Virus record (IMG/VR): IMGVR_UViG_3300048672_000344
Coordinates: 1 to 29,368 of that record
DNA length: 29,368 nt
Direction: 5' to 3' (one strand)
Origin: a virus
The position numbers and the translations under genes were made by a program. Below are positions 3,416 through 28,249 of this stretch, one piece after another. How positions within the stretch are numbered: position 1 is the stretch's first letter; each line of letters opens with the position of its first letter. The notes beneath the pieces are model-generated. The model was given only the letters and a program-made list of their open reading frames with translations. It made no database searches and was not told the DNA's origin.

Positions 3416-3783
3416 AGCGTCAACTCCGAAAGTTCAACGGTTTTCATGGCGACAGGCTGAGCAATCCACTTGTTAACTCGCGGCTTGTGTCCGAAAAACC
3501 GCTTGCGAACATACGAGATTGTCCCATAATCAGCTCCGGTTGCTGACTTGATGTCACCTGATGGAGCATTATTGTTTTCAGCCAAGTAATCATAAACCAG
3601 CCTGCTTGACGTACCTTCTTTCGGCTTGGTCTGCACCGGAGAGCGGATAGGCTCCGGCGAGATTTCGTTGTAGGCACCCCTGACCGCTTCGACACGCTTA
3701 ATGTTTGAACCCAAAAGCTCAACAATTTGCTTATTGGTTAAGCCTTGCTCGATGGCTTGCATTATTTGGCTTTTGAGGTTCAT
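3412..3783 (-). CDS. Small putative DNA-binding protein (123 aa)
   Basis: A 123-residue protein with an N-terminal helix-turn-helix-like stretch (about 1-30, SQIMQAIEQGLTNKQIVELL) and a second winged-helix-like portion (about 65-105, LVYDYLAENNNAPSGDIKSA then TGADYGTISYVRKRFFGHKP). I start it at 3783, not at an upstream start at 3798, because that ATG overlaps the upstream stop as ATGA and has GGGAGCGGAAG in front. Two DNA-binding modules in a row, beside another HTH gene, suggest a regulatory role. Function is not otherwise recognisable. Confidence 0.7.
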   Translation of the reverse strand: MNLKSQIMQAIEQGLTNKQIVELLGSNIKRVEAVRGAYNEISPEPIRSPVQTKPKEGTSSRLVYDYLAENNNAPSGDIKSATGADYGTISYVRKRFFGHKPRVNKWIAQPVAMKTVELSELTL

Positions 3784-13962: not shown

Positions 13963-14207
13963 TGAGCGAACAAATGCGGAAAGAGTTTGAGGCGTGGGCT
14001 GAATCAAAAAAGTGGTGCATTTTAAAAACTGATGGCGTTTATAACAACACGATTGTTGGCTGCGCTTTTGAAGCATGGCAAGCCAGCCGAGCGGCGATTG
14101 TTGTTGACCTATCGGATTTATGCGAAGCAAGTTATACTTATTTTGGTACTTGTTATAAATCAGATGTTGAGTATCGTTTAGAACAAGCAGGAGTATCGTA
14201 CAAATGA
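13962..14207 (+). CDS. Conserved phage hypothetical protein (81 aa)
   Basis: An 81-residue protein: 'MRKEFEAWAESKKWCILKTD' then 'CAFEAWQASRAAIVVDL'. The 'REAFEAWxxx...AFEAWQASRAAI' pattern is a widespread small early phage protein of unknown function, often found near replication genes. It is coupled to neighbours by TAATG and ATGA overlaps. Confidence 0.75.
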   Translation: MSEQMRKEFEAWAESKKWCILKTDGVYNNTIVGCAFEAWQASRAAIVVDLSDLCEASYTYFGTCYKSDVEYRLEQAGVSYK

Positions 14208-14371
14208 AAGGATTAACATACCAAGTAAAACAAAAAGCCACTAACAGAGTGTTGCGACTGTCGGAATTGGGGCCAAATAGCAGAGAAGTAGCCAAGCGCT
14301 TAATCGCACAAGGCGAGTTGATTAAATCTAAATGCGGAACTGGTTTTGTGATTGGGGAGTTGAAGAAATGA
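14204..14371 (+). CDS. Small putative winged-helix-like protein (55 aa)
   Basis: A 55-codon basic frame (MKGLTYQVKQKATNRVLRLS, then ELGPNSREVAKRLIAQGELI). 'SREVAKRLIAQGELIKSKCG' followed by 'TGFVI' looks like the last helix and wing of a winged-helix module. Start and stop both form ATGA overlaps. Function unknown; DNA binding is a reasonable guess. Confidence 0.65.
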   Translation: MKGLTYQVKQKATNRVLRLSELGPNSREVAKRLIAQGELIKSKCGTGFVIGELKK

Positions 14372-15736: not shown

Positions 15737-15893
15737 AATCCTAGACCTAAACAAGCCAAAGGTATTTGTCAGAGAGGCTGAGCTATATGAGCGAATCACA
15801 AAGCTGCTTGATGAATACGCAGGCGACTTGTCAGTAGTTGCGGCTCTTGGTGTTTTAGAGCTTGCAAAGGACTACATTAAACACCAATCATAA
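15729..15893 (+). CDS. Small hypothetical protein (54 aa)
   Basis: A 54-codon frame (MAEILDLNKPKVFVREAELY, then ERITKLLDEYAGDLSVVAAL). The 'LLDEYAGDLSVVAALGVLEL' stretch is like that of small early proteins found in several siphoviruses, of unknown function. It is the last gene of the rightward middle operon, and its TAA leads directly into the terminator stem. Confidence 0.65.
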   Translation: MAEILDLNKPKVFVREAELYERITKLLDEYAGDLSVVAALGVLELAKDYIKHQS

Positions 15894-15917
15894 GCAGCTT
15901 TCGGGCTGCTTTCTTTT
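15892..15917 (+). terminator. Intrinsic terminator of the replication/middle operon
   Basis: AAGCAGC-TTTCGG-GCTGCTT followed by TCTTTT: a 7-bp perfect stem with a T tract, right after the last middle gene and just before the small-terminase leader. Confidence 0.9.
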
Positions 15918-15921
15918 GCGC

Positions 15922-15973
15922 TATACTCAACAAATCTGCCAGCGGTGCTGGTGTTTATTAAGCGGTGCTTGAT
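15922..15973 (+). promoter_or_regulatory. Late leader A: TATACT + GCGGTGC pair upstream of terS
   Basis: TATACT (15922-15927), then 14 nt, GCGGTGC (15942-15948), then 13 nt, GCGGTGC (15962-15968), then 5 nt and ATG at 15974. The first copy is the core of hairpin CCAGC-GGT-GCTGG (15939-15951). The second provides a GGTG-type ribosome binding sequence. No good -35 exists 17 bp upstream, suggesting activator dependence. The same arrangement with identical spacing precedes the scaffold gene. Confidence 0.7.
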
Positions 15974-16369
15974 ATGTTGACCCCAAAACAAGAAAACTTC
16001 TGCCAGCTTTACGTTAAGCTAGGCAATGCCAGCGAAGCCTATAGACAGGCTTATAACTCATCTGCAAAAGCTCAATCTGTAGCGGTAGAGGCTTCAAAGC
16101 TGATGTCTGATCCTAATATTTCCCTTAGAGTTGCAGAATTGCGCGAAGAAATGAGCGAGCTTGCTTATTGGTCACGCATGGACAGCCTGAAAGTGCTTGC
16201 CGATATTGCCAAAGGCATTGATTCAGAAGCGAAGCCATCCGATAAAGTTGCAGCGGTTAAGGTTATTAACTCAATGCATGGATGGGATAAGCAGATCATC
16301 GACCAGACAACAACACACAAAGCTGATAAATCACTTGCTGAATTGCTGACAAATGGCAGCAAGCGCTAA
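15974..16369 (+). CDS. terS: Terminase small subunit (Terminase_2-like)
   Basis: A 131-residue small terminase that recognises phage DNA and regulates the large subunit. The N terminus 'LTPKQENFCQLYVKLGNASE' with 'AYRQAYN' is the classic helix-turn-helix opening of the Terminase_2 family. The middle 'EASKLMSDPNISLRVAELRE' forms the coiled oligomerisation part. ATG 15974 is preferred to an in-frame GTG at 15965, which lies inside the conserved leader motif. It overlaps terL by 17 bp. Confidence 0.92.
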   Translation: MLTPKQENFCQLYVKLGNASEAYRQAYNSSAKAQSVAVEASKLMSDPNISLRVAELREEMSELAYWSRMDSLKVLADIAKGIDSEAKPSDKVAAVKVINSMHGWDKQIIDQTTTHKADKSLAELLTNGSKR

Positions 16370-17921
16370 TCACGAAGCGGCAAAAGAATATCTAAGCCGC
16401 TTATCAGAGCTTTCACTTATCGAACTTGTTGACGCAATGTCTTACAAGTGGTTTAGGCTCAACACGCTTTACCACATCAAAGACAAAACAGGTAAAAAGG
16501 TTTTATTTGAGCCAAACCAAGAGCAAGAAACATTTTATCTTGACACTCATGGCAGAGACATAATCTTAAAGGCTCGGCAACTTGGGTTTACCACGTTCAA
16601 GATGATCAGCGACTTGGACGATTGCTTATTCACTCCAAACCATAGCGCTGGTTGTATATGTCACAATCTGGAAGATGCAAAAGACATATTTAGAAATAAA
16701 ATCAAATACGCATACCAAAACATATCAGAGCAGCAGCGCGAATTGATTGCGATGATGGGTTACGACCTACCAAAGCCAATCAACGACAAAGATAACAGCT
16801 ATGTATTTAACAACGGAAGCAGCATTAAAGTATCTGTCAGCTATCGAGGCGGCACCTTGCAAAGTCTGCACGTTTCCGAGTTTGGTAAGATTTGCAAGAA
16901 GTACCCAGAGAAGGCAAAAGAGATTGTTACAGGCGCGTTTGAAGCTGTTGGTATCGACGGAAGCATTACGATAGAGTCAACCGCAGAAGGTAAAGATGGC
17001 TATTTCTTTGATTACTGCTCAACAGCTAAGAAGTTAAAAGACCAAGGTAAAAATCCGTCAAAGCTAGATTTTAACTTTCACTTCTTTCCTTGGTATTGGC
17101 GCGCAGAGTACTCGCTGGAAGGTGGAGAAATTGCCAACAGCTTAACTTCATACTTTGATGAGCTAAAAGCAAAGCACAGCATCGAGTTAACTAATGGACA
17201 GATGGCTTGGTATTCTGCGAAATGGAAAACGCTTGGCGACGATATGAAGCGCGAATATCCGTCAACACCAGAAGAAGCATTTGCTCAGTCTATTGAGGGC
17301 GCTTACTACGCGCAGCAATTCAGAAAGATTTACGCAGACGGTCGAATTTGCCAAGGTTTAAACAATCAGGCCAAGGTGCACACCGTTTGGGATATTGGTG
17401 TTGGCGACTCTACATCGATTTGGTTCTATCAGCGCATTGGCAGTGAGATCCATTTGGTTGACTTCTACGAAAACAGCGGAGAAGGTTTGCAGCACTACAT
17501 GAAGGAGATGAAAAAGCGCGGCTATGACTATGGCGAGCACTGGGGACCTCACGATATTGAAAACAGAGAATTTGGCTCAGGTGCGCAAAGCAGGAAAGAT
17601 GCTGCCGCCAACGGTGTTGAAATAGATGGTGTTATTTACAAGATAAATTTCCAAGTAGTGCCGAAAAAGCCAATTGACGCAGGCATTGATGATGTTAGGA
17701 CTATACTTGCTAAATGTGTTTTTGATGAAAGAAAATGCGAGCAAGGCATAAAGGCGCTTGAGAGCTACCGCAAAGAATGGAACGATAAACTAGGCTGCTG
17801 GCGCGATAGACCGCTACATGATTGGTCAAGTCATGCTTCTGACGCTTTCCGCTACCTAGCTGTTGTTGAGGTTGGCAGAACTAAACCGATAGACAGGCCG
17901 CTCGCATGGGGCCGCAGATGA
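16353..17921 (+). CDS. terL: Terminase large subunit
   Basis: A 522-residue packaging motor. The ATPase domain holds the terminase-type Walker A 'KARQLGFTT' (73-81), the Walker B/catalytic Glu region 'SLHVSEFGK' (171-179) and the coupling-like 'ESTAEG' (208-213). The RNase H-like nuclease domain starts near 'VWDIGVGDSTSIWF' (345-358; Asp347 and Asp352 as likely metal ligands) and ends with 'HDWSSHASDAFRYLA' (489-503, Asp490 and Asp497). Length is normal. It overlaps terS by 17 bp and the next gene by ATGA. Packaging mode (cos or headful) cannot be decided by eye. Confidence 0.95.
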   Translation: MAASANHEAAKEYLSRLSELSLIELVDAMSYKWFRLNTLYHIKDKTGKKVLFEPNQEQETFYLDTHGRDIILKARQLGFTTFKMISDLDDCLFTPNHSAGCICHNLEDAKDIFRNKIKYAYQNISEQQRELIAMMGYDLPKPINDKDNSYVFNNGSSIKVSVSYRGGTLQSLHVSEFGKICKKYPEKAKEIVTGAFEAVGIDGSITIESTAEGKDGYFFDYCSTAKKLKDQGKNPSKLDFNFHFFPWYWRAEYSLEGGEIANSLTSYFDELKAKHSIELTNGQMAWYSAKWKTLGDDMKREYPSTPEEAFAQSIEGAYYAQQFRKIYADGRICQGLNNQAKVHTVWDIGVGDSTSIWFYQRIGSEIHLVDFYENSGEGLQHYMKEMKKRGYDYGEHWGPHDIENREFGSGAQSRKDAAANGVEIDGVIYKINFQVVPKKPIDAGIDDVRTILAKCVFDERKCEQGIKALESYRKEWNDKLGCWRDRPLHDWSSHASDAFRYLAVVEVGRTKPIDRPLAWGRR

Positions 17922-18109
17922 CAAACCTGTCAGAGCATCAACCGCATATCGTCGTAGCGACTGCTGATGCGGTACATGTTATTTGTCTAACCGATATTCG
18001 CAGGCTTGCACAAGGTTTGCCTTATCATGGAGACAAGGCGATAATGATTCAAATACTAGCCACAGCATTAAGAGATTTAATCGATGAGCATGACAGCAGA
18101 TCAACTTAG
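17918..18109 (+). CDS. Small hypothetical protein between terL and head gene (63 aa)
   Basis: A 63-residue protein (MTNLSEHQPHIVVATADAVH, then VICLTDIRRLAQGLPYHGDK). The start at 17918 gives an ATGA overlap with terL; an alternative at 17906 adds four residues. It overlaps the next gene by 26 bp. The location suggests a packaging or head accessory protein. No family is recognised. Confidence 0.6.
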   Translation: MTNLSEHQPHIVVATADAVHVICLTDIRRLAQGLPYHGDKAIMIQILATALRDLIDEHDSRST

Positions 18110-19181
18110 ACATGAGGCAATGCTGCAACGAGTGGCAACCGGGTTATTAAAGACCAACGTTTACCCGTCACTCGCTGAGGCTTACAAATCAGTCAGAGAA
18201 ATCCTGTTGGCTCAGGAAGAAATCAAGAGCGCAGCGCAGCTTAATCGCATAACGAAAGCCATTAGCGCATCAGTAACAGAGATTTACTCAGCAGGCTGGC
18301 AAGAAGCTACCAAAGAATTGCAAGCGCTGGCTGTTTACGAATCTAGCTACTATGCGGAGTTAATCGGCAAGTGGAATGATGTCGAGTTAGCTACTCCAGG
18401 CAGCAAGTCGATTATCGATTATGTGAATTCGGCTTTGATGGTACTTGGTGAAGGCGAGCGAGCAAAGGTTGGCGCATGGGCTGAGTTTGTCAACACTGCA
18501 ACGCAGGAATATACACAGCAGTACAATAACCTTGTGAAGATTGGCTATACTCGCAGCGCAACGGTTCAGCAGATCACTAAGTCACTCAAGACATTCAATG
18601 ATGGATTAGCAAAACAGCAAGCAGAAGCGTTGGCGCGTACCGGTGTCATGCACTACGCACAGAATGCACGAGAAGCAATGGCAACCGATAACCGCGACAT
18701 CATAGACAGGCGGTATTTTCTTGCAATGCTCGACAATCGCACCTCGCTTGGTTGCAGGTCATTACATGGGCGCACTTGGCAGCTTGAAGATGACAGCTAT
18801 GTGAGATTGCCTCGGCATTTTAGATGCCGCTCAAGCTACGTCTATCTATTGGAAGGTCAGGACAAGCCAATCGGCATGACTCCGGCAATTGGCTCAGGTG
18901 CTGACTATCCTGAAGATGCAGATAAAAAGCCAACTTACAAAGGACGAAAAGATTTAGGCAAGTTCAAAATTGAGCAAGTGCCTGCTGATATTTCACCGGA
19001 CGCATGGTTAAGGCAGCAATCGAGAGAGTTTGTCATTGACTCACTCGGCAAGACTCGCGCAGAGCTATTCTTGGATGGCGGATTGAAGATTGAAAGCATG
19101 ACTGATACGTTTGGCAATCCGTTAACATTGGAGCAGTTACGAGAGCGAGACGGCAAGGCTTTTGCTAAGATTGGCATTTAG
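18084..19181 (+). CDS. Head morphogenesis protein, SPP1 gp7-like (Phage_Mu_F superfamily)
   Basis: A 365-residue minor head protein. The helical N-terminal half is followed by the family signature 'MLDNRTSLGCRSLHGRTWQL' (about 215-234) and 'LPRHFRCRSSYV' (about 242-253), with the conserved Cys, His and Arg residues of the PF04233 module. A C-terminal ADP-ribosyltransferase-like or structural part ends 'LEQLRERDGKAFAKIGI'. Proteins of this family sit with the portal inside the procapsid and affect DNA ejection. Gene order terL - head morphogenesis - portal differs from SPP1 (portal first) but occurs in related phages. Confidence 0.88.
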   Translation: MSMTADQLRHEAMLQRVATGLLKTNVYPSLAEAYKSVREILLAQEEIKSAAQLNRITKAISASVTEIYSAGWQEATKELQALAVYESSYYAELIGKWNDVELATPGSKSIIDYVNSALMVLGEGERAKVGAWAEFVNTATQEYTQQYNNLVKIGYTRSATVQQITKSLKTFNDGLAKQQAEALARTGVMHYAQNAREAMATDNRDIIDRRYFLAMLDNRTSLGCRSLHGRTWQLEDDSYVRLPRHFRCRSSYVYLLEGQDKPIGMTPAIGSGADYPEDADKKPTYKGRKDLGKFKIEQVPADISPDAWLRQQSREFVIDSLGKTRAELFLDGGLKIESMTDTFGNPLTLEQLRERDGKAFAKIGI

Positions 19182-19214
19182 CAGTAAACTATTAAAAACG
19201 ATTAAGGGCGCAAC

Positions 19215-20669
19215 ATGCAGCAGATCACATTACACGCAGACGCAGCATTAATGCTGCCGAAGATTGAAGAAACTCGGATTACCTTGGCTGGTGAGTTTTT
19301 CGTAAAGCAGGCTCAATATGACTTGTTGCCGCATCCTAGCGATGGCGACAAGACAACGGTTGACGCGAAAAACCGTTATTCGATTTACATTGCAAACGCC
19401 GAGTACCAAAACTACGGCGGGCAGACGTTAGCTAGTTTGCTTGGCCGCATGAAGATTAAAGAAGCGGATATTCAAATTCCTGAGCGATTGAGCTACCTGT
19501 TAGAGTCCGCAGACAATGACGGCACATCACTCACAGGCATGATTGAGCAAACCGCATCAGAGTTAATGCCGATTAAGTGGCAAGTGCTTGTGTCTGACTA
19601 TCTTGGATTATCTGAAGTTGATTTAACTGATGTGTCAATCGAGGATGTTAAGCGGGCCAATCCTCGCGCAACGATTAAAGCGTACAACAGAGATAAGGTG
19701 GTTAACTGGCATTTTAGCCGCATCAATGGTGCGATGCAGTTGACTTACATCATGCTACGCGAAGACGGCACAGAGTTCGACCCGTACACGGCAACGCACA
19801 CAGCGGTAGAATCTTACCTAGTGTTAGCGCTTGACGAAGGCGGCAATTACTATCAGCAAAAGATTGTTAAACGCTCAAGCGGGTTAGAAGAAGGCGAGCG
19901 CAGCTACATGACTGTTAGCGGCTCAGCGTTAACCTGGCTACCGGTAACATTCGCATCAGATGAAGAAATCAAAGCTGGTGCATTACCTAAGCAAATGGGC
20001 TTCATTAGTCCGATTTGCGACTTGGCATTAGCTCGCTACCGCATGAGCGCTGAATATAAAGAGACTATCCGCAACTTGCCGCCGACTACTTATGTTTTCG
20101 GTGCGCGGTCGAACTTTCAAGAGCAATTCTTTGCTGCTAATGGCAGGGATTACATAGAGACAGGTTCAGGCAGTCGCAACACGTTACCAGATGGCTGCAC
20201 AGTTCAAGTTGTTGGTTGTGAGACTTCAGTCGAGCCATACGAGTCATACTTTGAACGCAACACACAAGAAGCGAGACAAATGGGCGCAGTGCTACAGGGC
20301 GATGTGAAAGCAGCAACAGCTACAGAAGCAGAGATTGCAGCGGCAGAGAATAACGCTCGCTTGGTTGCTTTGGCTCAGGGCTTGGAGTCTGCATATCAGA
20401 AAGCTATTTTATACTGCGGCATGTTTGAAGGGTTGTGGGGAGCTGATGCCATCGAGCAAAACATGGACCAAGTAGTTATCAGCTTGCCTCGCACATTCGC
20501 TAAGTCGAAACTATCAGTCGAAGAAGTGCGCGTTATCATGGAATTAGTGCTTGCAGGACTCAAGCCGCGAGAGTTGGCAATTCGTGAATTAGCAGAGGGT
20601 GGCTGGTCTATGGATGATGCAGAATCGGTGCTGAATGCTATTGACGGTGGCGATAATTTGACGGTTTAG
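19215..20669 (+). CDS. Portal protein, DUF4055-like
   Basis: A 484-residue protein with the DUF4055 portal layout: 'YQNYGGQTLASLLGRMKIKE' near 62-81, 'LLESADNDGTSLTGMIEQTA' near 95-114, a beta-rich middle, and a helical crown including 'RQMGAVLQGDVKAATATEAE' and 'AENNARLVALAQGLESAYQK'. It should form the dodecameric DNA channel at one capsid vertex. AAGGGCG lies before ATG. It is followed by a conserved leader and the scaffold gene. Confidence 0.88.
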   Translation: MQQITLHADAALMLPKIEETRITLAGEFFVKQAQYDLLPHPSDGDKTTVDAKNRYSIYIANAEYQNYGGQTLASLLGRMKIKEADIQIPERLSYLLESADNDGTSLTGMIEQTASELMPIKWQVLVSDYLGLSEVDLTDVSIEDVKRANPRATIKAYNRDKVVNWHFSRINGAMQLTYIMLREDGTEFDPYTATHTAVESYLVLALDEGGNYYQQKIVKRSSGLEEGERSYMTVSGSALTWLPVTFASDEEIKAGALPKQMGFISPICDLALARYRMSAEYKETIRNLPPTTYVFGARSNFQEQFFAANGRDYIETGSGSRNTLPDGCTVQVVGCETSVEPYESYFERNTQEARQMGAVLQGDVKAATATEAEIAAAENNARLVALAQGLESAYQKAILYCGMFEGLWGADAIEQNMDQVVISLPRTFAKSKLSVEEVRVIMELVLAGLKPRELAIRELAEGGWSMDDAESVLNAIDGGDNLTV

Positions 20670-20730
20670 TAAGACAGGTATAAAATCACTAAAGCGATGC
20701 GGTGCATCATAACTAGAGGCGGTGCCTATA
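20658..20730 (+). promoter_or_regulatory. Late leader B: TATAAA + GCGGTGC pair upstream of scaffold
   Basis: TATAAA (20679-20684), then 14 nt, GCGGTGC (20699-20705), then 13 nt, GCGGTGC (20719-20725), then 5 nt and ATG at 20731. The first copy lies in hairpin GATGC-GGT-GCATC (20696-20708). TTGACG at 20658-20663 with a 17-bp spacer to TAAAAT (20681-20686) also makes a good sigma-70 promoter here. All spacings from the TATA box to ATG equal those of leader A. Confidence 0.75.
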
Positions 20731-21426
20731 ATGTTTGTTGAATCATTGGAAAAAGTGCCTGAAGATTGGCGCGATCAGTTTGTTGAAGTTGAAATTGACG
20801 GTAAGAAAGGCTATCAAGATAAAGACAGCCTAGCGCTAAAACAACTAGCGTTTAACGTCAAAGAAGAAAACAAGACGGTTAAAAGCCGTTTATCAGAATT
20901 TGAAAAGCAGCAAGCAGAAAAGCTGGCTGAAGCAGAGCGTAAGGCACTTGAAAAGCTGAAAGCTGAAGGTAAGACGGATGAGATCATAGCAGACCTTGAG
21001 CGCAGACATGGTGAGACGGCTAAGGATTTTCAATCGCGCATCGACCGATTGACCAACAGCATCAAGACCGAAAAACGCACTGCACTTGTAGCAGATTTAG
21101 CGAGCGAGTTGGCAACGGACTCAGGCAGTAAAGCATTTAAACGCCTAGTTGCGGACCGCATCGAGGTTGACCCAGAGACGGGCAAAGTAACGTTTTTAAA
21201 TGATGATGGCGGTGCCTCATCGTTAGATTTGGCAGGGTTCAAAGCGGAGTTATTGAAAGATGACAGCTTTGCGCCACTGCTTAAAGCAGGTGTTGTTACC
21301 AAAGGCGGTGGCAATGCTCAAGGCTCAACAGGTGCAGGCGGTGCTTCCTCTGTTGGCAATTTAGGCGGCTCACGATCTGAACGTGAAGCAGCTTTAGCTA
21401 AAAAGTTTAAATTACCAATCAACTAA
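20731..21426 (+). CDS. Capsid scaffolding protein
   Basis: A 231-residue protein of typical scaffold character: an acidic N terminus (VPEDWRDQFVEVEIDGKKGY), a long charged coiled coil (about 40-115, including 'KSRLSEFEKQQAEKLAEAER'), a Gly/Ser-rich hinge near the end ('GGNAQGSTGAGGASSVGNLG') and a basic C-terminal tail 'ALAKKFKLPIN' that could bind the coat protein. It directly precedes the major capsid gene. ATG 20731 is preferred over the in-frame GTG at 20722, which is within the leader motif. Confidence 0.85.
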   Translation: MFVESLEKVPEDWRDQFVEVEIDGKKGYQDKDSLALKQLAFNVKEENKTVKSRLSEFEKQQAEKLAEAERKALEKLKAEGKTDEIIADLERRHGETAKDFQSRIDRLTNSIKTEKRTALVADLASELATDSGSKAFKRLVADRIEVDPETGKVTFLNDDGGASSLDLAGFKAELLKDDSFAPLLKAGVVTKGGGNAQGSTGAGGASSVGNLGGSRSEREAALAKKFKLPIN

Positions 21427-22425: not shown

Positions 22426-22450
22426 AAAGGGGCTTAAATGCCCCTTTTTT
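22426..22450 (+). terminator. Bidirectional terminator after the major capsid gene
   Basis: AAAGGGGC-TTAAAT-GCCCCTTT followed by T residues. On the minus strand the same stem ends the HNH endonuclease gene, whose TAA (22436-22434) lies in the loop. Confidence 0.88.
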
Positions 22451-22904
22451 CTCTGTATGCCTTATAAGCCGCAAAAGCATCGTCCTCAGTCTTAAAAACG
22501 CCCAAATGAATAGTTTTGCCATCTTCTTGAATTGAAGCTCTAAATTTATTCTCTGATCTTTTTGATTTGTATGTTGAAACGCCAAGCATTAAGTTGGTTC
22601 TCGATTGGTGCTGATTCTTGTTGTTCATTGCCTTTGTGGTATTTCGCAGGTTGGCAATTCTGTTGTCAAGCTTGTTCCCATTGATGTGATCAATGCAATC
22701 GGGCATTTCACCATGAACAAAAAGCCAAGCAAGGCGGTGACAATACTCTTTCTTTCCTAGCAAGCTTAAGGAGCGATAACCTAGCTTTGTAACGACTCCA
22801 GCCTCGTCTCCAACCTTAATCCTGTTACTAGTTCTTATCTTCCATTGGAAAACTCCAGTATCTTGGTTATAATCTAAATACTTTTTAACTTCTTCGATAT
22901 TCAC
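22434..22904 (-). CDS. HNH homing-type endonuclease with AP2-like domain
   Basis: A 156-residue protein encoded antisense to the late operon. HNH motif: 'CHRLAWLFVHGEMPDCIDHI' with 'NGNKLDNRIANLRNTT' (about 55-90; His56, Asp72-His73 and Asn residues as active-site candidates). The C-terminal part (about 108-153, GVSTYKSKRSENKFRASIQE, HLGVFKTEDDAFAAYKAYRE) is an AP2-like DNA-binding module. I start it at GTG 22904, behind GGAGG with 5-nt spacing; a GTG at 22916 lacks such a site. Free-standing HNH-AP2 genes are mobile. A weak promoter (TTCCAT-17-TATGCT) may lie upstream. Confidence 0.9.
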   Translation of the reverse strand: MNIEEVKKYLDYNQDTGVFQWKIRTSNRIKVGDEAGVVTKLGYRSLSLLGKKEYCHRLAWLFVHGEMPDCIDHINGNKLDNRIANLRNTTKAMNNKNQHQSRTNLMLGVSTYKSKRSENKFRASIQEDGKTIHLGVFKTEDDAFAAYKAYREKRGI

Positions 22905-22954
22905 AATCGCCTCCACTTAATGAATATCGAAAGCATAACATAAGGTGATTAGTT

Positions 22955-23101
22955 ATGGAAATCGTTTATCTACCGATGCCAGTTAGCGTTGAAGAAAAGC
23001 GCGAATGGAACAAGAAGGGCTTCAAGGTTGTTGATGAGTTTTACAAACCAGCCGAAGAAGCAAAACCAGAGCAGAAAGCCAAAAAGAAAGCCGCAGAATA
23101 A
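22955..23101 (+). CDS. Small Lys/Ala/Glu-tailed head-region protein (48 aa)
   Basis: A 48-codon frame (MEIVYLPMPVSVEEKREWNK, then KGFKVVDEFYKP) with a Lys/Glu/Ala-rich tail. AAGGTG lies 8 bp before ATG. Small proteins with a 'W/xxKGFKVVD' segment occur next to capsid genes in other phages. Its stop lies in the loop of the terminator that follows. Function unknown; a capsid accessory role is inferred from position. Confidence 0.7.
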   Translation: MEIVYLPMPVSVEEKREWNKKGFKVVDEFYKPAEEAKPEQKAKKKAAE

Positions 23102-23115
23102 GCGGCTTTTTCTTT
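23088..23115 (+). terminator. Intrinsic terminator with stop codon in loop
   Basis: AAGCCGC-AGAATAA-GCGGCTT followed by TTTCTTT. The TAA of the 48-aa gene is the end of the loop. Confidence 0.85.
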
Positions 23116-23677: not shown

Positions 23678-23910
23678 TTGCTAAAGTTTGTTGGTTAAGC
23701 TAATCTAATTGCATTCCCACGGTTGGCGACAATGCCATGATAACGGGTTAAAGACTAGAGCGGCCTTCCTCTGCTCGTATTAGCTTCCTGTTTGAAATTG
23801 TCGAAGGCAGGTTCTTTCCGCCCACATGCGCGGTTTCTACCTTTCCGCTTTAGCTGCTAAGTGCCGACATCGCAGCAAACACTAACCGCCTAGAGCGGTT
23901 TTTGTTTTTT
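23678..23910 (+). ncRNA. Candidate structured RNA/attenuator, no ORF
   Basis: This stretch has no convincing ORF but several pairings: AAGCTAAT (23697-23704) with ATTAGCTT (23779-23786); GCATT (23711-23715) with AATGC (23731-23735); GCTGC (23853-23857) with GCAGC (23872-23876); and a terminator at the end. GCGGTT at 23830-23835 is identical to the terminator's 3' arm, so it could pair with AACCGC (23884-23889) and block the terminator. A weak promoter TTGCTA-17-TAATCT begins at 23678. RNA function is a hypothesis. Confidence 0.35.
23884..23910 (+). terminator. Intrinsic terminator before the Gp49-like gene
   Basis: AACCGC-CTAGA-GCGGTT followed by TTTGTTTTTT: a clear rho-independent terminator at the end of the 23678-23910 intergenic stretch. 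Confidence 0.88.
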
Positions 23911-28227: not shown

Positions 28228-28249
28228 AGGGGCTTAACGCCCCTTTTTT
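28228..28249 (+). terminator. Intrinsic terminator after the tail tube gene
   Basis: AGGGGC-TTAAC-GCCCCT running into six T residues. It would reduce transcription of chaperone and tape measure genes relative to the tail tube. Confidence 0.88.

Follow-up and report, generated by a model that had tools for sequence, protein, structure and literature searches.

Background

The balance between scaffold, capsid and terminase in tailed phages is an old question, and an RNA operator of assembly genes is known from the RNA phages. In MS2, PP7 and Q-beta, the coat protein operator is a hairpin over the start codon of the replicase gene, which is recognised through its loop bases, and the loops are lineage-specific. 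In tailed phages, the scaffolding protein gp8 of P22 regulates its own synthesis post-transcriptionally in response to free scaffold; this is a classical system that has been little followed, and we know of no description of its RNA target as a twin triloop hairpin. The leader of Escherichia coli thrS, the operator of ThrRS, has a hairpin on either side of the ribosome site, and the N-G-U of the threonine anticodon lies in a 7-nt loop. Hairpins at the 5′ terminus can also protect an mRNA. Near phage GP20 (scaffold) genes, two candidate RNA motifs, GP20-a and GP20-b, are said to have been listed by Weinberg et al. in 2017. Leaders controlled by CsrA/RsmA carry tandem hairpins, one of which overlaps the ribosome site (PMC4347634).

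Paired hairpins in the terS and scaffold leaders

The window, that is, the whole stretch of DNA analysed, is a 29.4-kb virus record. The first-pass annotation had pointed out an identical layout, TATAxx-N14-GCGGTGC-N13-GCGGTGC-N5-ATG (equal to TATA-N16-GCGGTGC-N13-GCGGTGC-N5-ATG), in front of two late genes, which PHROGs assigned to the small terminase subunit (terS, phrog_51) and the head scaffold (phrog_206). The layout is exact: there are exactly two copies in the window (15922–15976 and 20679–20733), and the full TATA...ATG pattern occurred in 0 of 100 shuffles of the window. The word GCGGTGC alone is not rare, being present in 9 copies against 4.2 expected. Copy 1 forms the hairpin with a GGT loop that had been described, CCAGC-GGT-GCTGG (15939–15951) before terS and GATGC-GGT-GCATC before the scaffold gene. 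Searching for further hairpins with this apex revealed that copy 2 is likewise a GGU-triloop hairpin in both leaders, a feature that had been overlooked. Copy 2, previously taken to occupy the ribosome-binding position, does lie over the Shine-Dalgarno (SD) sequence or start codon, yet it is a second hairpin rather than mainly a ribosome-binding word. RNA folding returned exactly these four GGU hairpins as the minimum-energy structures of the two leaders; their folding energies were not unusual relative to shuffles (z of +0.5 to −2.2), and z-scores did not discriminate.

The last base of the terS hairpin 2 is the A of the start codon, and an in-frame GTG lies 9 nt 5′ of the ATG of both genes, inside copy 2 (at 15965 in the terS hairpin and at 20722 in the scaffold hairpin). 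Transcription of the scaffold operon is expected to start at about 20693, a few nt 5′ of hairpin 1. The features are collected in Table 1.

Table 1. Features of the two leaders, a candidate regulator gene and related leaders with GGAU loops
Feature	Position	Strand	Basis
55-aa winged-helix-like protein, secondary candidate regulator	14204..14371	+	Only in element-bearing core-clade contigs
Intrinsic terminator of the preceding operon, immediately 5′ of the terS promoter region	15892..15911	+	Terminator scan
−10-like box TATACT, terS leader	15922..15927	+	Sequence; same box in relatives
terS leader hairpin 1, core CCAGC-GGU-GCUGG (15939–15951), Y-NGU-R triloop	15937..15953	+	MFE fold; conservation in homologous leaders; covariation
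terS leader hairpin 2, UAUUAAGC-GGU-GCUUGAUA (DNA: TATTAAGC-GGT-GCTTGATA)	15956..15974	+	MFE fold; equivalents over start codon in relatives
Small terminase subunit gene terS, which opens the packaging operon; regulated gene	15974..16369	+	phrog_51, E=3.6e-22
Sigma-70-type promoter TTGACG-N17-TAAAAT, scaffold operon	20658..20686	+	Scan of the window; sequences of relatives retain TTGAC and a −10 at 17-nt spacing
Scaffold leader hairpin 1, GAUGC-GGU-GCAUC	20696..20708	+	MFE fold; relatives have GACGC/GCGUC, among others
Scaffold leader hairpin 2, AGGC-GGU-GCCU, between SD-like AGAGG and ATG	20717..20727	+	Apex search; MFE fold
Head scaffold gene, regulated gene	20731..21426	+	phrog_206, E=2e-22
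GGAU scaffold leader, L338	6020–6111		
GGAU scaffold leader, L339	6170–6242		
GGAU scaffold leaders, L276, L301, L253 and L273			

Other features of the late region were also noticed. Intrinsic-terminator-like sites on the plus strand at 22426–22447, 23085–23111, 23884–23900 and 28228–28244 suggest read-through or antitermination of late transcription. Right behind the major capsid gene, an HNH endonuclease gene (22434–22916) has been inserted in the opposite orientation (minus strand), and a protein of 60–67 aa with the motif QPHIVV...HVI... (17906–18109), encoded between terL and the head morphogenesis gene, is found from this clade to Pseudomonas prophages.

Conservation of the hairpins in related phages

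Homologous leaders were fetched by scaffold and TerS protein homology, before any hairpin had been defined. In these leaders a hairpin is kept after the −10 box and a second one, with few exceptions, at the start codon, while arms and spacers differ: arms of hairpin 1 include GACGC/GCGUC, CUGGU/ACCAG, UCGGU/ACCGA, CAGGC/GCCUG and GUGGU/ACCAC, and those of hairpin 2 include GGAU/AUCC, AGCC/GGCU, CAGUC/GACUG and UUUGUC/GACAAA. When the best triloop hairpins were taken from 22 homology-chosen leaders, whatever their loop or closing pair, two were present in 18, and 39 of the 40 triloop hairpins had a Y-[N-G/A-U]-R apex; tetraloops were nearly absent. The compensatory arm differences had been read as a sign of RNA structure, and covariation bears this out: among 28 NGU-class leaders, all nine stem pairs change on both sides, 98% of cells are paired, and double changes number 90 vs 23 in shuffles, a count that leans towards structure, since the distant rows of this set were chosen by a hairpin descriptor; the unconditioned test on 22 leaders is free of such selection. 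Scanning 22 contigs (0.53 Mb, both strands) yielded 25 two-hairpin leaders with NGU loops and none for each of 15 other loop classes. Under the rules applied, about 15 of 86 thinned scaffold leaders had no hairpin pair.

In the leaders read, hairpin 2 covers or adjoins the SD sequence or the start codon, and in several relatives (L132, L138, L143, L147 and L139) the evident start is a GTG (or ATG) built from the loop and the closing base. The element expected by the first-pass annotation, structured RNA common to the packaging and capsid operons and lying over the translation start, is thus borne out by the hairpins at terS and scaffold, and the structural part of its proposed comparison with related leaders gave strong conservation. 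The literal part did not hold. The rigid 20-nt spacing, the word GCGGTGC and the full TATA...ATG pattern occur in near relatives only, and among the matches listed for GCGGTGC-N13-GCGGTGC in viral contigs most looked unrelated. What is conserved is not the word but a hairpin with a Y-[N-G/A-U]-R apex, which is replaced by NGG, NGA, NAU or GGAU loops in other lineages. Hairpin centres are 19–34 nt apart in relatives, so the 20-nt period, once regarded as suiting a DNA-binding protein, is a local feature; G-U pairs in the hairpin arms also speak against that reading.

Distribution and loop classes

Homologues of the major capsid protein (MCP) in genomes and viral contigs were used to widen the set of leaders. 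Among 93 scaffold leaders, two hairpins with a Y-R closing pair were found with NGU loops in 21, NGG loops in 20 and NGA loops in 4, and such leaders were nearly absent from 28 other loop classes. Across the head module the loops are lineage-specific: 1) NGU, as in the window; 2) NGG, in Pseudomonas prophages, in Guernseyvirinae such as E. coli phage K1H and in Oceanospirillum phage GJ44, the set consisting mostly of closely related Pseudomonas prophages; 3) NGA; 4) NAU, in L139, L141, L303 and L269; and 5) GGAU, with two to three tandem C-GGAU-G or U-GGAU-A tetraloop hairpins before the scaffold gene, resembling CsrA/RsmA sites. Carriers of GGAU loops include Pseudomonas aeruginosa phage YMC11/02/R656, PS-1 and, with a single hairpin, Acinetobacter prophages. 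Some lineages mix classes (AGU with AGA; UGU with AAU), and H105/1 and Vibrio 242E40-1 have other or partial hairpins. Named carriers of the element, which include cultured phages of E. coli, Salmonella, Klebsiella and Serratia, are Klebsiella phage VLCpiS11a, Serratia phages Tsm2 and Otaku, E. coli phages K1H and fPoEco01, Salmonella phages f18SE and VSiP, and Hafnia phage TS33. A genome scan of K1H for NGG hairpin pairs gave exactly two, in the terS and scaffold leaders, and GJ44 also has the element at both genes. In the Pseudomonas prophages the hairpins directly follow a terminator, with no promoter between.

Several gene exchanges were seen around the element. In L139 (5809–7681), an SU10-type MCP stands beside a GP20-type scaffold and a portal related to those of the window, amounting to a capsid protein swap within a conserved head module. 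In L123 and L126 (both at 3521, compared with 15922 in the window), a terS of a different type (MSELGRPSKYKPEY...) follows a near-identical leader, so that promoter and operator stay and the first gene is swapped. In L074 (reverse complement), GUAGGGC-GGU-GCCCUAC and GGGC-GGU-GCCC occur near position 201 before a gene starting MALKRKITKAEFDKLSG; by eye the product looks like another scaffold family, and the element may therefore reach further.

Proposed operator and its putative binding protein

Read from sequence, the element comprises a two-hairpin structure with covariation, a position on the translation start, a wide spread and a loop class that matches within genomes. We think it probable that its tandem hairpins form a translational operator for a protein encoded by the phage; the scaffold is the likeliest binder and would act as an autorepressor linked to assembly. 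Each leader would then work as an RNA operator in which both small hairpins present a sequence-specific triloop, hairpin 1 lying close to the 5′ terminus of the late mRNA and hairpin 2 over the SD and start-codon region of the first gene, which is terS in the packaging operon and scaffold in the capsid operon. A protein recognising the loop and closing pair would bind both hairpins and block ribosome loading, and packaging and head-assembly genes would thereby be co-regulated at translation; hairpin 1 may raise the affinity, as in two-site leaders. With hairpin 2 masking the SD sequence or translation start, a bound protein would block initiation, and for this reason we infer repression rather than activation. 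Of the phage-encoded translational repressor or late activator suggested by the first-pass annotation, the shared structured RNA is consistent with the regulation, and the binder itself is a putative one. The scaffold is the natural candidate because the P22 scaffold feeds back on its own synthesis; free scaffold outside procapsids would repress synthesis of itself and of terS.

Evidence on the binder came from comparing genomes. The loop class was equal in the terS and scaffold leaders of 12 of 12 genomes, these being 10 NGU/NAU genomes (mostly one NGU clade) and two NGG phages, so that few independent class switches lie behind the concordance; the stem sequences differ between the two leaders of a genome, and the agreement in loops is therefore not simple copying. 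Explaining the loop classes takes 11 changes on the scaffold tree vs 18 on the MCP tree; the scaffold tree has long branches, and linkage alone could produce such tracking because the scaffold gene adjoins its own leader. Scaffold and element remain in L139 with its SU10-type MCP, and in L123 and L126 the leader has stayed the same in front of a terS of another type. The fit to the scaffold tree, these MCP and TerS swaps with the element kept, and the restricted occurrence of the 55-aa protein make the scaffold our preferred binder. The scaffold protein has no match in Pfam, and no domain for RNA binding could be recognised in it.

Another phage-encoded regulator, for example the 55-aa protein or a different assembly protein, is an alternative that we hold to be rather unlikely. 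The 55-aa family, with the motif LxELxPNSREIAxRLxxxGEL, lies upstream of terS and occurs only in element-bearing core-clade contigs; its predicted model is winged-helix-like with weak fold matches only, and it has no Pfam or confident PHROG match. However, it was not found in G002 or G007, near terS of L148, L150 and L178, in the Pseudomonas prophages or in the searched loci outside the core clade, and the MCP has been swapped without loss of the element. The 67-aa protein encoded after terL was dropped as a regulator, because prophages with a different loop class have it too. Binding by a host protein of the CsrA/RsmA type, which would tie late translation to host physiology, is suggested by the GGAU lineage, whose tandem loops present GGA as in CsrA/RsmA sites. 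We regard this as improbable, given that the loops of the window class and the NGG, NGA and NAU loops lack GGA and that phages of a single host genus can differ in loop class, as NGG prophages and GGAU phages do in Pseudomonas; a conserved host protein would leave this unexplained.

A similarly low probability was given to passive hairpins with no dedicated regulator, which would stabilise the 5′ end of the mRNA and keep the first gene at a low or timed level of translation. Such a role would suit the window clade, where hairpin 1 begins a few nt from the 5′ end expected from the scaffold promoter, but a passive structure would not require N-G/A-U loops and Y-R closing pairs to be kept while the stems drift, nor loop classes to agree between operons, and the Pseudomonas prophages have no promoter just before their hairpins. 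That the leaders are instead transcription antitermination RNAs (put-, nut- or ops-like) would agree with the terminator-like sites of the late region and is very improbable: hairpin 2 stays on the start codon at any distance from hairpin 1, and the searches gave neither a boxA or ops sequence nor an antiterminator match in Rfam. The disfavoured reading as a DNA operator, with inverted repeats bound by a dimeric protein at late promoters, is hardly credible. The arms are also DNA palindromes and, in the window clade, follow closely on the −10 box; however, their sequences drift, they include G-U pairs, their spacing varies, and hairpin 2 tracks the start codon and not the promoter.

Comparison with known systems

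No leader matched Rfam 15 (including int-alpA and Proteo-phage-1) at gathering score, in the window, in 12 loci of the NGU/NAU class or in 9 loci mostly of other classes, and relaxed E-values gave no relevant leader match; JUMPstart had a single weak hit in the window (20032–20052, minus strand, E=9). Likeness of AGU pseudotriloops to the iron-responsive element was rejected, as no consistent bulged C was present. If GP20-a or GP20-b were the same element, its structure would be partly known already, though Rfam shows no match. The open literature searched contained no description of the twin-hairpin element and no paper on autoregulation by P22 gp8.

The thrS leader shares with the present element two hairpins at the ribosome site and an N-G-U in the loop; here, however, the loops are triloops, and relatives use NGG, NGA or NAU, which are not threonine anticodons. 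The likeness to CsrA/RsmA leaders lies in the tandem hairpins and, for the GGAU lineage, in the GGA loops, whereas all four loops of the window are GGU and the NGU, NGG, NGA and NAU classes have no GGA loop. Neither the conserved palindrome sequence and helical spacing of a dimeric-repressor operator nor the boxA/boxB, put fold or ops match of antitermination RNAs (nut, put, JUMPstart/ops) was found. By analogy with P22 gp8, the RNA element on the scaffold start may serve a similar feedback by free scaffold, with the difference that terS is included here.

There is a parallel with the coat operator of RNA phages, in that a start-codon hairpin with phylogenetically supported pairing and a conserved loop is present in both. 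The differences are that the present element belongs to dsDNA tailed phages, has two hairpins with a triloop lacking the bulged A, serves two operons and has a putative binder. RNA operators of assembly genes are known from RNA phages; what appears to be new here is the twin triloop form, together with its distribution and loop codes. It offers a concrete RNA target in a large phage group, directly testable because the group includes the cultured Guernseyvirinae of E. coli and Salmonella, and since lineages use different loop codes, it may yield a set of orthogonal RNA-protein pairs. More tentatively, and with less than even confidence, we suggest that a widespread RNA-binding function of the scaffold family in tailed dsDNA phages could read twin triloop hairpins through lineage-specific loop codes (NGU, NGG, NGA, NAU and GGAU), coupling the state of capsid assembly to translation of scaffold and terminase, as a DNA-phage counterpart of the RNA-phage coat operators with evolvable specificity.
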